From: Actinomycetota bacterium | GTDB lineage: Bacteria; Actinomycetota; Actinomycetes; Nanopelagicales; Nanopelagicaceae | Length of the DNA: 12,600 bases | Assembly: GCA_947463335.1 (NCBI GenBank) | Contig: CANHRF010000016.1 | Location: forward strand, 1-12,600 | Direction: 5' to 3' | Part shown: positions 5,736-8,863 of the stretch, piece by piece | How positions within the stretch are numbered: the first letter of the stretch is position 1 | Layout: each line of letters begins with the position of its first letter | The notes under the pieces: model-generated | Told to the model about the DNA's origin: nothing | Database searches by the model: none | The model's input: only the letters and a program-made list of their open reading frames with translations | Program-made: the position numbers and the translations under genes

Positions 5736-5933
5736 ATGCGCATCTCTGATCTCCGTGAACGCTTAACGCTATCTTTCGGCGAAGATTGGACACCTTCTTT
5801 CTGCAAAGATATTGCAATTACAGAATTAGGCAGTAAGAGCGTCGATGAATCCCTGCAATTAGGAATTGAACCGAGCGATATCTGGCGCGCAGTATGTGCT
5901 GCATATCCAATGGAAACTTCTAAATACCGATAG
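5736..5933 (+). CDS. DUF3046 family protein
   Basis: This small 65-residue protein matches the actinobacterial DUF3046 family by its MRISDLRERL opening, FGEDW, the central AITELGSKSVDESLQLG and the closing DIWRAVCAAYP. The family has no established function and is normally encoded immediately upstream of recA. Here about 3.7 kb of other genes separate the two. The ATG at 5736 lies 18 bases after the tetR stop. The upstream AAAAG is only a weak ribosome site, so coupling to tetR is plausible. Confidence 0.85.
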   Translation: MRISDLRERLTLSFGEDWTPSFCKDIAITELGSKSVDESLQLGIEPSDIWRAVCAAYPMETSKYR

Positions 5934-5940
5934 CGCGCAG

Positions 5941-5966
5941 TTGCAAGTAATTAGCGTGTTGCAAGT
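5941..5966 (+). repeat. direct repeat TTGCAAGT x2, 18 bp apart
   Basis: TTGCAAGT occurs at 5941-5948 and 5959-5966, each containing the palindrome TTGCAA. The second copy doubles as the -35 of the leader-peptide promoter. The 18-bp phasing next to a promoter suggests binding of a regulator (inference). Confidence 0.5.
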
Positions 5967-5987
5967 TATCAGTTAAGACTTTATATT
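5959..5987 (+). promoter_or_regulatory. promoter for a leaderless sulfur leader transcript
   Basis: A -35 TTGCAA (5959-5964), a 17-nt spacer and a -10 TATATT (5982-5987) are spaced ideally. Seven bases after the -10 comes the ATG of the leader peptide (5995), so the transcript should start at or next to that codon. There is no Shine-Dalgarno ahead of the ATG, consistent with leaderless translation. Confidence 0.65.
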
Positions 5988-5994
5988 TCTGCTT

Positions 5995-6051
5995 ATGTTT
6001 ACCAAGCGTCGTGTAATTGACTTCTGTCGCGTAAACACCTCTGCCTGCTGA
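5995..6051 (+). CDS. cysteine-containing leader peptide (18 aa) upstream of the sulfur genes
   Basis: The small frame encodes MFTKRRVIDFCRVNTSAC followed by TGA. The arrangement R-R-x-x-D-x-x-R-x-x-S-A-C is the pattern seen in short actinobacterial leader peptides placed ahead of sulfur and cysteine genes. Related leaderless cysteine-rich short frames act as cysteine-responsive attenuators in mycobacteria. Cysteine codons are 6025-6027 (TGT) and 6046-6048 (TGC), the latter being the last sense codon. The frame starts 7 nt after a strong -10 and ends 93 bases before the rhodanese ATG. The peptide itself probably has no separate function; the act of translation would be the sensor. The motif match and promoter placement are seen directly; the regulatory role is inferred from family knowledge. 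Confidence 0.75.
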   Translation: MFTKRRVIDFCRVNTSAC

Positions 6052-6140
6052 TTTTTAACTCAGCCGCATTACCTCGTTGTCTAGAATAAAAAACTTTCAT
6101 CTAATTTATTCCAATCAATTTATGTTATTTCAAGGGAGAG
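5996..6140 (+). promoter_or_regulatory. putative translational attenuator of the rhodanese gene
   Basis: Two pairings are visible. TGTTTAC (5996-6002) pairs with GTAAACA (6031-6037), extended by GCG/CGC (6006-6008, 6028-6030), closing a stem over the leader-peptide codons. CTCTGCCT (6039-6046) covers codons just before and into the last Cys codon and can pair with AGGGAGAG (6133-6140), the rhodanese Shine-Dalgarno, with one internal G-G mismatch. A ribosome slowed at the cysteine codons would therefore change access to the ribosome site. Which state is active is not decided by the sequence. An alternative promoter TTGTCT with TAATTT (6077-6107, spacer 19) is weak. Confidence 0.45.
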
Positions 6141-6144
6141 TCAT

Positions 6145-7107
6145 ATGTTAAGAAAAGCAGTTATACGAACAAATGTATTTATCACAGCGCTAATTAGCCT
6201 TGCGCTGGTAGCTGGTCTATCTGTTGCGCCTGCCAACGCAGCACCAAAGAACTTAGCCCGCGCAGTGGTTCAGGCTGATTGGCTAGAAAAGAATCTAAAC
6301 AATCCTGATGTAAAAATTATCGAAGTAAGCACTGAATCTGGCTTGTACGAACGTGGCCATATTAAGAACGCCGTTAAGTTCAACTGGTACACAGACCTGG
6401 TTGAAGTTGTTAATCGCGATATCGTGGCAGCCCCAAGATTCCAGAAGTTAGCTCGTGCAGCCGGAATCAATAAGGACTCAACGGTAGTTCTGTACGGAGA
6501 TAAGAACAATTGGTTTGCTGCGTGGGGTGCGTGGATCTTCAACACCTACGGAATCCAGGATGTTCGTTTGCTAGACGGTGGCCGAGTTAAGTGGGAGAAA
6601 GATGGACGTGGATTTACAACCGCAGTTCCAGCACCAAAAGCGGGTAACTTTGTTGCAACAAAAGCTGACCGAAGTATCCGTGCAACACTAAACCGCGATG
6701 TTATTCCTGCAGTTCGCAAGAAGGGCAGCGTTGATATGGTCGATATTCGCTCTGCTGATGAATTCAGCGGAAAGATTTTCGCACCTGCTGGTTTCCAAGA
6801 GTTAGCAGTGCGCGCTGGACATATTCCTGGTGCAGTAAATGTTCCTTGGGGCCAGAACGTTAATTCTGATGGCACCTTCAAGACTGTCGCTGAGTTAAAG
6901 AAGCTTTACTCTGACAAGGGAATTGATGGAAAGAAAACCATCATCACCTATTGCCGTATCGGTGAGCGCTCATCGCTCACTTGGTTCGTGTTGAGTGAGA
7001 TTCTGGGTTATGAAGTTAAGAACTATGACGGTTCTTGGACGGAGTACGGCAATAGCGTCGGTAACCCAATCAACAACCCAGCCGGCACAATTTGGGGAGC
7101 TTCCTAA
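6145..7107 (+). CDS. exported two-domain rhodanese (thiosulfate sulfurtransferase)
   Basis: The 320-residue protein has a Sec-type signal peptide: basic MLRKAVIRTN, a hydrophobic core at about residues 11-27, and likely cleavage after ANA (30-32). Two rhodanese domains follow. The first (about 38-160) lacks a catalytic cysteine, having LYGDKNNW at that loop. The second carries the active-site loop CRIGERSS with C270, the only cysteine in the mature protein, as in actinobacterial thiosulfate sulfurtransferases of the CysA/SseA type. These move sulfane sulfur from thiosulfate to an acceptor. Those relatives generally lack an obvious signal peptide, so export is notable. The ribosome site GGGAG (6134-6138) is strong. 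The stop lies inside the start of the transporter gene, suggesting a joint role in acquiring reduced sulfur (inference). Confidence 0.92.
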   Translation: MLRKAVIRTNVFITALISLALVAGLSVAPANAAPKNLARAVVQADWLEKNLNNPDVKIIEVSTESGLYERGHIKNAVKFNWYTDLVEVVNRDIVAAPRFQKLARAAGINKDSTVVLYGDKNNWFAAWGAWIFNTYGIQDVRLLDGGRVKWEKDGRGFTTAVPAPKAGNFVATKADRSIRATLNRDVIPAVRKKGSVDMVDIRSADEFSGKIFAPAGFQELAVRAGHIPGAVNVPWGQNVNSDGTFKTVAELKKLYSDKGIDGKKTIITYCRIGERSSLTWFVLSEILGYEVKNYDGSWTEYGNSVGNPINNPAGTIWGAS

Positions 7108-8357
7108 TTAATACAGATACTAACTTTGGCAGAGGTTCCGCTACAGGCGGAACCTCTGTTGAGGCTTCTATCTGGAGCAGAGCAGACACGCTTCGCACCA
7201 CTGCAGCAGGTGGAATTATCGTCCTGCTGCTTGCCACCGCATATTTTCTAAATGGCAAAGAGGGCGCTGGCGTAAATGCCGCTCTTTCATTGTTAATTGG
7301 AAGCGCGCTAGGTATTGCATTTGAACGTGGAAGATTCTGTTTCTTCTGCATTTTTCGCGATGCAGTGGAGGATAGAGATACAACTCCATTCCTGTCGATC
7401 CTTAGCGCAATCGCAGTAGGAGCGCTTGGTTACGCCATTATCTTCGGTCAATTCTTACCGGACACTAATTCAGAGAGAGTTCCACCCGGTGCACACATTG
7501 GTCCAGTAAGTCTGGCTTTAGTAGTTGCAGGGCTGGCATTCGGAATTGGTATGGCGCTATCTGGCGCTTGTATCAGTGGTCATTTATATCGAATCGGTCA
7601 GGGTTCACTTCGTGCTTATCCTGCGCTCTTTGGATCGTTAATTGGTTTCGGTCTTGGATTTAAGAGTTGGAACACCCTGTATTCAAAGTCAATCAGTGGA
7701 GCATCGAGCAGCTGGCTGCCACATAAATTAGGTTATGGCGGCGCACTGCTACTGACTCTTCTTGTGCTTTCTGTAATTGCGATTATCGCTATCAAGTGGG
7801 GAAAGAATTCAACTCCACTTGCAAATCCAGTTGCAGAGCGAGTTTCGCTAGCTTCGGTACGTCAATCACTCTTTATCAATCGCTGGCGCCCGCTAACAAC
7901 TGGCGCGATATTCGGCGTAATTGGAACCTTTGCATATCTTCGTATTGAACCTCTGGGCGTAACTCGCCAGATAAGCACGACTTCACGAACTTATTTTGAG
8001 GGCAAGAGTTGGATTCCTGAAAACCTCGACGGTCTTGATCTTATGGCTGGTTGTGTTGCGATTGTGTCGACTGCGATCGTTAACAACGGATGGCTAATTC
8101 TGGGAATTGTGCTCGCCTCATTTGCCGCTGCACTAACCGGAAATCGCTTTAAATTTCAGCAGATTACCTTGCGCAATGGCTTAACTGCTTTGCTTGGTGG
8201 CGTGCTTTTGGGGTGGAGTTCCATGATCGCCCTAGGTTGCACCGTTGGTGTTCTGCTATCAGGCACTCAATCTTTTGCGCTCTCTGGCTGGGTCTTCTTC
8301 GCAACTGTATTTATTGGCAGCTGGATTGGCATAAAACTTAAACTTCACAAGCTTTAA
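7092..8357 (+). CDS. YeeE/YedE (TsuA-like) sulfur-compound transporter
   Basis: This 421-residue membrane protein has about 10-11 hydrophobic helices. The three conserved cysteine motifs of the YeeE/YedE family are present: FERGRFCFF (C83), GMALSGACISG (C160) and IALGCTVG (C383). In the characterised thiosulfate transporter TsuA/YeeE such cysteines relay thiosulfate through the membrane. Extra cysteines are C86 and C321. The substrate is probably thiosulfate or another sulfane-sulfur compound, supported by the upstream rhodanese. The frame has no ATG or GTG before the first helix; TTG at 7092, overlapping the rhodanese stop by 16 bases, is the only standard start. It gives a soluble 30-residue tail that includes an 11-bp hairpin at RNA level. 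The start is therefore uncertain. Confidence 0.88.
   Translation: MGSFLINTDTNFGRGSATGGTSVEASIWSRADTLRTTAAGGIIVLLLATAYFLNGKEGAGVNAALSLLIGSALGIAFERGRFCFFCIFRDAVEDRDTTPFLSILSAIAVGALGYAIIFGQFLPDTNSERVPPGAHIGPVSLALVVAGLAFGIGMALSGACISGHLYRIGQGSLRAYPALFGSLIGFGLGFKSWNTLYSKSISGASSSWLPHKLGYGGALLLTLLVLSVIAIIAIKWGKNSTPLANPVAERVSLASVRQSLFINRWRPLTTGAIFGVIGTFAYLRIEPLGVTRQISTTSRTYFEGKSWIPENLDGLDLMAGCVAIVSTAIVNNGWLILGIVLASFAAALTGNRFKFQQITLRNGLTALLGGVLLGWSSMIALGCTVGVLLSGTQSFALSGWVFFATVFIGSWIGIKLKLHKL
7131..7157 (+). terminator. strong hairpin at the rhodanese/transporter junction (attenuator-like)
   Basis: AGAGGTTCCGC (7131-7141) and GCGGAACCTCT (7147-7157) form a perfect 11-bp stem with a 5-nt loop, beginning 24 bases after the rhodanese stop. 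No proper T-run follows, so full termination is unlikely. Partial termination, mRNA 3'-end protection or control of transporter translation are the options. It lies inside the transporter frame as called. Confidence 0.55.
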
Positions 8358-8395: not shown

Positions 8396-8863
8396 GTGGA
8401 TTTCAAATTAATTACCGCCGCAATTGGAATCCTCTTTGTCTTTATCTATGCCTTTGGTTCAGGAATCTGGGTTTCTTCTGCACCCGGTTGGTATGCCTCG
8501 TTAAATCGTCCACCTTGGCAGCCACCCAGTTCAATCTTTGGATTGATCTGGCCATATAACTTTATAGTTCTTGGCATAGCCTCATACCAAGTCTCAAAAT
8601 CTTTGACGCGCTTTGAGAATATAACTTGGCTTGTATTCTTTGGATTAAGTATCGTCGCAGCGCTGATTTGGGCTTATCAATTCTATGTCCCACATAATTT
8701 CTTAATCGCGTCGATTGCTTTGACTTCGACTGCGGTGCTAACAATTCCGATGCTCTTGCTAACCTTCAGAGCATCGGTCGCAATGGGGCTATTTCTTCTT
8801 CCCTATCAAATTTGGGTAGCTATCGCCGCCAGTCTGGCTTGGGGTTATCTAGCAAGAAATTAA
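8396..8863 (+). CDS. tspO: TspO/MBR family tryptophan-rich sensory protein
   Basis: The 155-residue protein has five predicted membrane helices and eight tryptophans. The family core is clear: GWYASLNRPPWQPPSSIFG (residues 31-49) followed by LIWPYNFIVLGIASY, with the C-terminal helix ending WGYLARN. TspO proteins bind porphyrins and other ligands and have been tied to oxygen, light or oxidative-stress responses; a transport or porphyrin-degrading role is debated. The GTG at 8396 leads directly into the first helix, and no earlier start suits the family. It follows the transporter gene by 38 bases and may also be read from that operon. A sulfur role is not implied by sequence. Confidence 0.9.
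   Translation: MDFKLITAAIGILFVFIYAFGSGIWVSSAPGWYASLNRPPWQPPSSIFGLIWPYNFIVLGIASYQVSKSLTRFENITWLVFFGLSIVAALIWAYQFYVPHNFLIASIALTSTAVLTIPMLLLTFRASVAMGLFLLPYQIWVAIAASLAWGYLARN

Follow-up and report, generated by a model that had tools for sequence, protein, structure and literature searches.

The short frame and its neighbours

The DNA analysed here (the window, 12,600 nucleotides of a Planktophila-like actinobacterium of acI, an abundant freshwater lineage of the Nanopelagicales) contains an 18-codon frame flanked by a DUF3046 gene (5736-5933) on one side and by a gene for an exported rhodanese on the other (Table 1). The frame begins with ATG at 5995-5997, and its last sense codon, Cys18 (6046-6048), is followed by a TGA stop at 6049-6051. 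Cys residues occur at positions 11 and 18 only, and adjacent Cys codons of the polycysteine type are absent from the window leader. The initial annotation had placed here, upstream of an exported rhodanese/YeeE pair, an 18-codon frame ending in Cys, with few Cys codons in place of a polycysteine tract, a TTGCAA-N17-TATATT promoter and two pairing segments. Every letter of these elements was present, and both the position and the small number of Cys codons were confirmed. The nearest solved chain to the exported rhodanese is a thiosulfate sulfurtransferase (3hwi), and the transporter resembles the TsuA (6leo) and YedE types, while scoring below all NCBIfam cut-offs. A TspO/MBR-family gene (8396-8863) lies 38 nt past the YeeE gene and is possibly co-operonic.

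Table 1. Positions of the leader frame and associated features in the window
Feature	Position	Strand	Basis or remark
Promoter-upstream dyad, window copy TGCAAGTAATTAGCGT	5942..5957	+	Starts 40 nt before the -10 hexamer; consensus TGCRAATNAYTYGCAA
-35-like hexamer TTGCAA	5959..5964	+	Named in the initial annotation; hexamer not conserved in relatives
-10 hexamer TATATT, 7 nt before leader start	5982..5987	+	Position; recurrence of TAnnnT
Leader peptide frame MFTKRRVIDFCRVNTSAC with TGA stop	5995..6051	+	Open reading frame, conservation, NCBIfam
G-depleted, pyrimidine-rich spacer with C above G, candidate Rho loading stretch	6052..6131	+	Composition
Rhodanese Shine-Dalgarno AGGGAGAG	6133..6140	+	Sequence
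Exported rhodanese, thiosulfate-sulfurtransferase-like	6145..7107	+	Signal peptide judged by eye
YeeE/TsuA-type Sulf_transp membrane transporter	7092..8357	+	Tool-listed start codon, uncertain

Conservation of the frame was examined in the best 80 of 140 rhodanese loci, in which 500 nt of upstream DNA were scanned with a loose motif. The frame was present in 30 of the 80 (L001-L029 and L040), including each of the 29 that combine upstream DNA with a rhodanese identity of 70% or more; at L031, also with 70% identity, merely 2 nt of upstream DNA are available. It was not found in the other 50 loci, which come from Ilumatobacteraceae-like actinobacteria, Chloroflexota, Pseudomonadota and others, and among which the upstream DNA is short in L031, L038, L042, L045 and L046. 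By rhodanese identity, the nearest kin are L001 (95%) and L002, L005 and L003 (87% each), the last being Candidatus Planktophila lacus. The leaders share the core K-R-R-x2-D-x2-R-x5-C, and in L029 the inner Cys is replaced by Ala. The codon-level conservation that the initial annotation had proposed to look for, by alignment of orthologous 5′ regions, was found as a strong synonymous bias. Among codons differing by one base in 31 sequences (29 distinct cores), synonymous and nonsynonymous differences stood at 1885:495 in frame, compared with 393:2165 and 416:1979 in the other frames, counts that include the codons fixed by the selecting motif. Exclusion of the six motif-fixed codons left 841:495 in frame versus 117:1357 and 284:1073. 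A DNA pattern for KRRxID[FY]CR, run on 120 relatives of P. lacus, had a single match in each of 13, and its reversed control matched none. An orthologous rhodanese (at least 70% identity) was detected in 12 of 80 relative genomes, 11 of which also carry the leader pattern; in the twelfth, G049, the rhodanese begins at a contig end. As judged from these comparisons, the short frame is confirmed as real and as conserved beyond chance.

Two other searches were set aside: a loose leader pattern that matched 68 of 80 genomes and was too unspecific, and the NF042934 model run over three genomes, whose best E value was 0.036 and which also matched in 10 of 14 control genomes. The records of the MAG loci L014-L018, L020, L021, L024 and L043 are titled Bifidobacterium breve; these titles look wrong, and the rhodaneses concerned group with those of acI or Ilumatobacteraceae-like actinobacteria.

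A YeeE gene comes next after the rhodanese in 29 of the 30 leader loci, the remaining one (L007) ending early. The same arrangement was found in 45 of the 50 loci where no leader was found, so the pairing of rhodanese and YeeE is independent of the leader.

In the window, the TTGCAA and TATATT hexamers are separated by 17 nt. The region 5900-6400 contains two promoter-like sites versus 1.1 in shuffles, and the promoter taken alone is within chance. Thirteen of the 31 sequences (the window, L001-L006, L008-L010, L014, L015 and L025) have a TAnnnT hexamer 6-7 nt upstream of the leader start, as expected of a leaderless type. A Shine-Dalgarno-like match was found in sixteen others, and in 15 of these TAnnnT ends 32-39 nt before the start. 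With L017, classed by eye, the Shine-Dalgarno-led type amounts to 17 of 31, and L029 fits neither class. On the tree of exported rhodaneses the start type changes at least four times, three of the changes being forced by well-supported branches. The leaderless start proposed in the initial annotation thus fits the window locus, where transcription would begin at or next to 5995, but it does not hold as a defining trait: since 17 of the 31 sequences are classed as Shine-Dalgarno-led, the device does not need it.

Kinship with mycobacterial cysteine leaders

Leader peptides of the Ms5788A family are Cys-rich and were reportedly described by Canestrari and colleagues in 2020. The corresponding NCBIfam model, leader_Ms5788A (NF042933), was the nearest to the window peptide, which scored 24.7 bits (E=1.4e-5, with two Ala as padding) against a cut-off of 45. 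With cis_reg_atten (NF042934) the peptide shares a short motif and scored 17.2 bits against a cut-off of 27, and so it reaches neither of the two curated cut-offs. Four other exported-type leaders (L017, L024, L011, L023) gave 15.8-22.5 bits with the Ms5788A model. Leaders were also found with a second type of rhodanese, about 50% identical to that of the window and which we take to be CysA2-like, either directly upstream of it or before a preceding DUF4395 gene. Three of five second-type leaders tested were at or above the 45-bit cut-off (L113, 54.9; L124, 45.0; L126, 51.7), and L112 and L179 were below it, so that six of the nine scanned leaders (L179, L112, L017, L024, L011 and L023) lie at 15.8-24.7 bits. 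The L113 leader contains a run of Cys. When 21 exported and eight second-type leaders were aligned (alignment A1), K, R, R, D, R and the last C were invariant with unchanged spacing, an invariance that is partly built in for the eight second-type rows because these were picked by motif. The window leader therefore has its motif and register in common with leaders that pass the Ms5788A cut-off, and the kinship with mycobacterial cysteine leaders named in the initial annotation is supported.

A motif search detected the leader at 14 of 18 second-type loci, or at 15 of 18 with L112. Among four further loci, L179 has a leader and L180 has none; L181 and L182, both with stop codons inside the rhodanese, gave no match. 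The leader is dispensable before DUF4395, because the operon lacks it in L115, L120, L123, L180, L239 and L241. A search of 74 genomes with a leader profile returned 61 places, spread over 45 of them (E of 0.05 or better). Thirty of the places were fetched, and every one stands before a gene of one of three kinds (11 exported rhodaneses, 17 DUF4395-type genes and 2 rhodaneses), with gene identity judged from the protein start and confirmed by Pfam for five proteins; the remaining 31 places, many of them weak, are outside this tally. In a midpoint-rooted rhodanese tree, the exported and second-type proteins were well separated. Thirty of the 31 leader-bearing exported rows fell into one clade (100/96), and L029 was placed in a neighbouring clade (98/87) together with 13 rows where no leader was found and L031, which has no usable upstream DNA. 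Since leaders precede two distinct rhodanese families that are separated in the tree, the leader was probably recruited to the exported operon.

Mycobacterial Cys-rich leaders are treated in PMC9031893 and PMC13236596. The window leader resembles the Ms5788A family in its KRR-x2-D-x2-R core with an end Cys, in its predicted leaderless-type start and in the rhodanese operons of the kin fetched. It differs in lying below the cut-off, in having two Cys codons rather than a polycysteine tract, and in preceding a different, exported rhodanese with YeeE; moreover, about half of its relatives are Shine-Dalgarno-led. The conserved coding frame, the fixed register to the last Cys and the place before sulfur operons are well supported by these comparisons. 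The feature is very probably a cysteine leader peptide, a minimal variant in a new operon and lineage, and we consider it quite likely that it controls the exported rhodanese-YeeE operon in cis, as a cysteine-responsive, Ms5788A-like leader. That the operon responds to cysteine, and in which direction, we infer from the mycobacterial kin. Transcription would start at the leader's own AUG, and the ribosome would make the conserved KRRxxDxxR segment and then reach Cys18. With sufficient Cys-tRNA, it would finish and depart and the operon would be turned down; under cysteine shortage, it would stall at Cys18 and the operon would be expressed.

Four acI strains are described in Kang et al. 2017 (PMC5301498) as being without assimilatory sulfate reduction. 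This agrees with a cysteine-sensing leader placed in front of genes for an exported sulfurtransferase and a likely transporter of sulfur compounds. One of the four, IMCC26077, is the source of L011. A PF01507 member was present in two of three genomes searched, and the lack of sulfate assimilation is taken from PMC5301498 only. If these strains do without sulfate assimilation, as PMC5301498 indicates, a switch on their genes for reduced sulfur bears on the flow of sulfur and carbon in lakes.

A shared dyad and a leader before cysK

Upstream of the promoter lies a dyad with the consensus TGCRAATNAYTYGCAA, which looks similar to the Nur box of Streptomyces. When TAnnnT was sought 36-44 nt downstream of the dyad start, 25 of the 31 exported loci had it at a distance of exactly 40 nt, regardless of the type of leader start; the six that deviate are L005, L006, L009, L010, L013 and L029. 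At L016, L018 and L019, the TAnnnT at 40 nt is a second hexamer, upstream of the one used for typing the start. A score of at least 12 over the 15 scored positions was reached by 27 of 31 exported, 13 of 13 DUF4395-type and 19 of 19 cysK-type promoters, compared with 1.4% of 10,000 random stretches of 120 nt. These scores, though not the spacing, are partly circular, because the consensus was drawn from the same sequences. The window copy scores 11 of 15, a value that 9% of random stretches of 120 nt attain as well; with so weak a copy, the case for a dyad in the window rests on its position. A dyad search of 50 genomes, from which 14 stretches were fetched, revealed four boxes before cysK, each then followed by a short frame, and two before DUF4395 without a leader (L239 and L241). 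The remaining boxes were located before other genes or inside coding sequence, as named by eye. At the six DUF4395 loci without a leader listed above, the dyad is kept and DUF4395 starts near the promoter. Near-identical dyads also occur just before CbiM-type metal transporter genes (L200:5371 and L178:10333).

A pattern for the cysK leader, a leaderless-type frame exemplified by MKSIINWLFTRNRVVDFCLSTSCSC, matched in 19 of 120 genomes (L247-L265), with no match in the control. The next gene is cysK in 17 of the 19, and none was detected in L254 or L260. The distance from the start of the dyad to the leader is 46-52 nt at every one of the 19 loci. With the nine pattern-fixed codons excluded, synonymous and nonsynonymous differences were 194:76 before the pattern (other frames 42:269 and 34:271) and 257:33 after it (other frames 0:312 and 53:243). 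Two cysK-leader peptides gave no match to NCBIfam at E values up to 1. The length from FT to the last Cys is equal in the cysK and window leaders, with 8 of 17 residues alike in our own alignment, and the register of the last Cys is kept in 18 of 19 cysK leaders, L248 being out of it. In the literature matches listed for the window's leader, which leave subscription journals mostly uncovered, no title or abstract pointed to leaders of that form in acI or before rhodanese-YeeE or cysK. The shared dyad and the cysK leader appear to be the newest parts of this work.

The recurrence of the dyad raises the possibility that a transcription factor at 5942-5957 sets the operon in the main and that the leader only fine-tunes it. 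The constant 40-nt spacing, the return of the dyad before the DUF4395 and cysK leaders and its persistence where the DUF4395 leader is missing all speak for such a factor. Set against these are the weakness of the window copy and the boxes before the CbiM genes, and we regard this alternative as possible but doubtful. A first candidate for the putative factor is the Fur-family-like protein whose gene lies after DUF4395 in some relatives.

From the leader to the operon

The preferred reading, control by a cysteine-responsive leader, calls for a way in which a stall at Cys18 is read. The initial annotation had suggested a translational attenuator, in which CTCTGCCT at 6039-6046 pairs with the Shine-Dalgarno AGGGAGAG and a stall at Cys frees the latter. 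In the window, 7 of 8 positions can pair and the predicted duplex was stronger than in all of 200 synonymous recodings; ranks of 0.05 or below were also obtained for L003 and L006, and L001 and L002 stood at 0.10. In PMC13236596, the cysteine cases of M. smegmatis are, moreover, termed translation attenuation. Over the 31 sequences, however, only these three (the window, L003 and L006) reached 0.05, the mean rank was 0.51, and in L005 both sides of the pairing are altered, so that by eye the pairing is lost rather than kept by covariation. Accessibility of the Shine-Dalgarno, with gene starts set by a scripted motif, was 0.283 versus 0.316 in shuffles (mean rank 0.435). The pairing is thus, on these sequences, specific to the closest kin at best, it does not stand as a conserved device, and the attenuator as formulated is rather unlikely. 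The stem that the initial annotation had drawn over the leader codons fared no better, being lineage-level at best: with gene starts set in the same way, the folding z score was -1.72 in the window but averaged +0.17 over the 31 leader-to-Shine-Dalgarno stretches, in which no conserved RNA structure was found.

It could also be argued that the peptide acts in trans as a functional micropeptide and stands before sulfur genes merely as an operon partner. Its amino-acid conservation reaches well past the Cys codons, and G043 has two operons with a leader on the exported one only (L104 with, L180 without). G004, on the other hand, has both operons with one variant leader before each (L100 and L179), all 30 fetched copies directly precede an operon, and in the leaders inspected the last motif Cys is at most five codons from the stop; we hold a function in trans to be very unlikely. 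A classical attenuator with an intrinsic terminator, to which a T-run after the leader stop in many loci might point, is still more improbable, as 5900-6400 contains no terminator-like site versus 0.5 in shuffles, the 31 stretches show no tendency to fold by the mean z score given above, and the window gave zero Rfam matches at gathering cut-offs.

The composition of the spacer directs attention to Rho. Between leader stop and Shine-Dalgarno, the 31 loci contain 6.5% G and 21.5% C, with a mean C-G skew of 0.55 and a lowest value of 0.20. A skew of at least 0.41 was found in 26 of 31 spacers versus 3 of 147 control upstream regions (control mean 0.01); the controls were taken from 800 kb of two relatives on the basis of crude gene calls, so that some may be coding, and the leader locus of P. 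lacus is itself among them (0.30, cut differently). Among AT-rich controls, 0.41 was reached by none of 14 with GC of 35% or less and by one of 33 with GC of 40% or less. Spacers behind second-type leaders averaged 0.50 at 11 low-GC loci (L211 just 0.13) and 0.24 at eight high-GC loci (L220 0.00). Rho was found in all three relatives' genomes tested, so that a G-poor stretch with C above G and the factor that might act on it are both present among the kin, as a Rho-dependent attenuator would require of the sequence.

In E. coli, TnaC senses free tryptophan, and the ribosome held at the end of the leader shields a Rho site past the stop. What we propose is like tnaC in its logic only, a stalled ribosome shielding a Rho site just after the stop, and unlike it in the signal, which at the window leader would be a shortage of cysteine. 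Seliverstov et al. 2005 (PMC1262725) predicted Cys leader peptides and, on the grounds that the mycobacterial cys leaders had polypyrimidine motifs behind them but no terminators, suggested that Rho acts there. Those leaders are like ours in that Cys codons lie close to the stop, a terminator is absent, pyrimidine stretches separate leader and gene, and Rho is the proposed agent. They differ in having runs of Cys codons and in belonging to cys operons of Mycobacterium and Propionibacterium and to cbs of Bifidobacterium, not to rhodanese-YeeE or cysK. Given this precedent, the G-poor spacer and the lack of a terminator or conserved fold, a tna-like route is ranked first, and Rho termination in the spacer, blocked by the stalled ribosome, is our tentative choice for the read-out. 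A read-out by masking of the Shine-Dalgarno seems doubtful, and the same applies to re-initiation or other routes.

On a wider view, which we hold to be possible but doubtful, acI would possess a two-tier cysteine regulon, made up of a 15-bp dyad at about -45 and leaders of a common register (R-x2-D, with the last Cys nine residues past D) before three operons, namely exported rhodanese-YeeE, DUF4395-rhodanese and cysK. With the last Cys codon in the A site, the upper exit tunnel would hold the conserved residues other than Cys, and the peptide may therefore itself aid stalling. A stall aided in this way would let a single Cys codon replace the polycysteine tract, and Rho would read it in the spacer.

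Constant among the leaders are KRR/D/R, one last Cys in a fixed register and the G-poor spacer; polycysteine, leaderlessness and Shine-Dalgarno pairing are variable. This division makes an old question, how leaders without a terminator work, directly testable.

An AT-rich inverted repeat, TTGTT...AACAA, was seen directly after the DUF4395 leader stop in L210, L214, L215, L226 and L227, with a variant, TTATT...AATAA, in L216; it was not noticed after an exported-type leader. In the same six fetched loci (L210, L214, L215, L216, L226 and L227), a Fur-family-like gene lies 3′ of DUF4395 and is followed by a GCV_T/YgfZ-like gene, Pfam having been run on L210 only.
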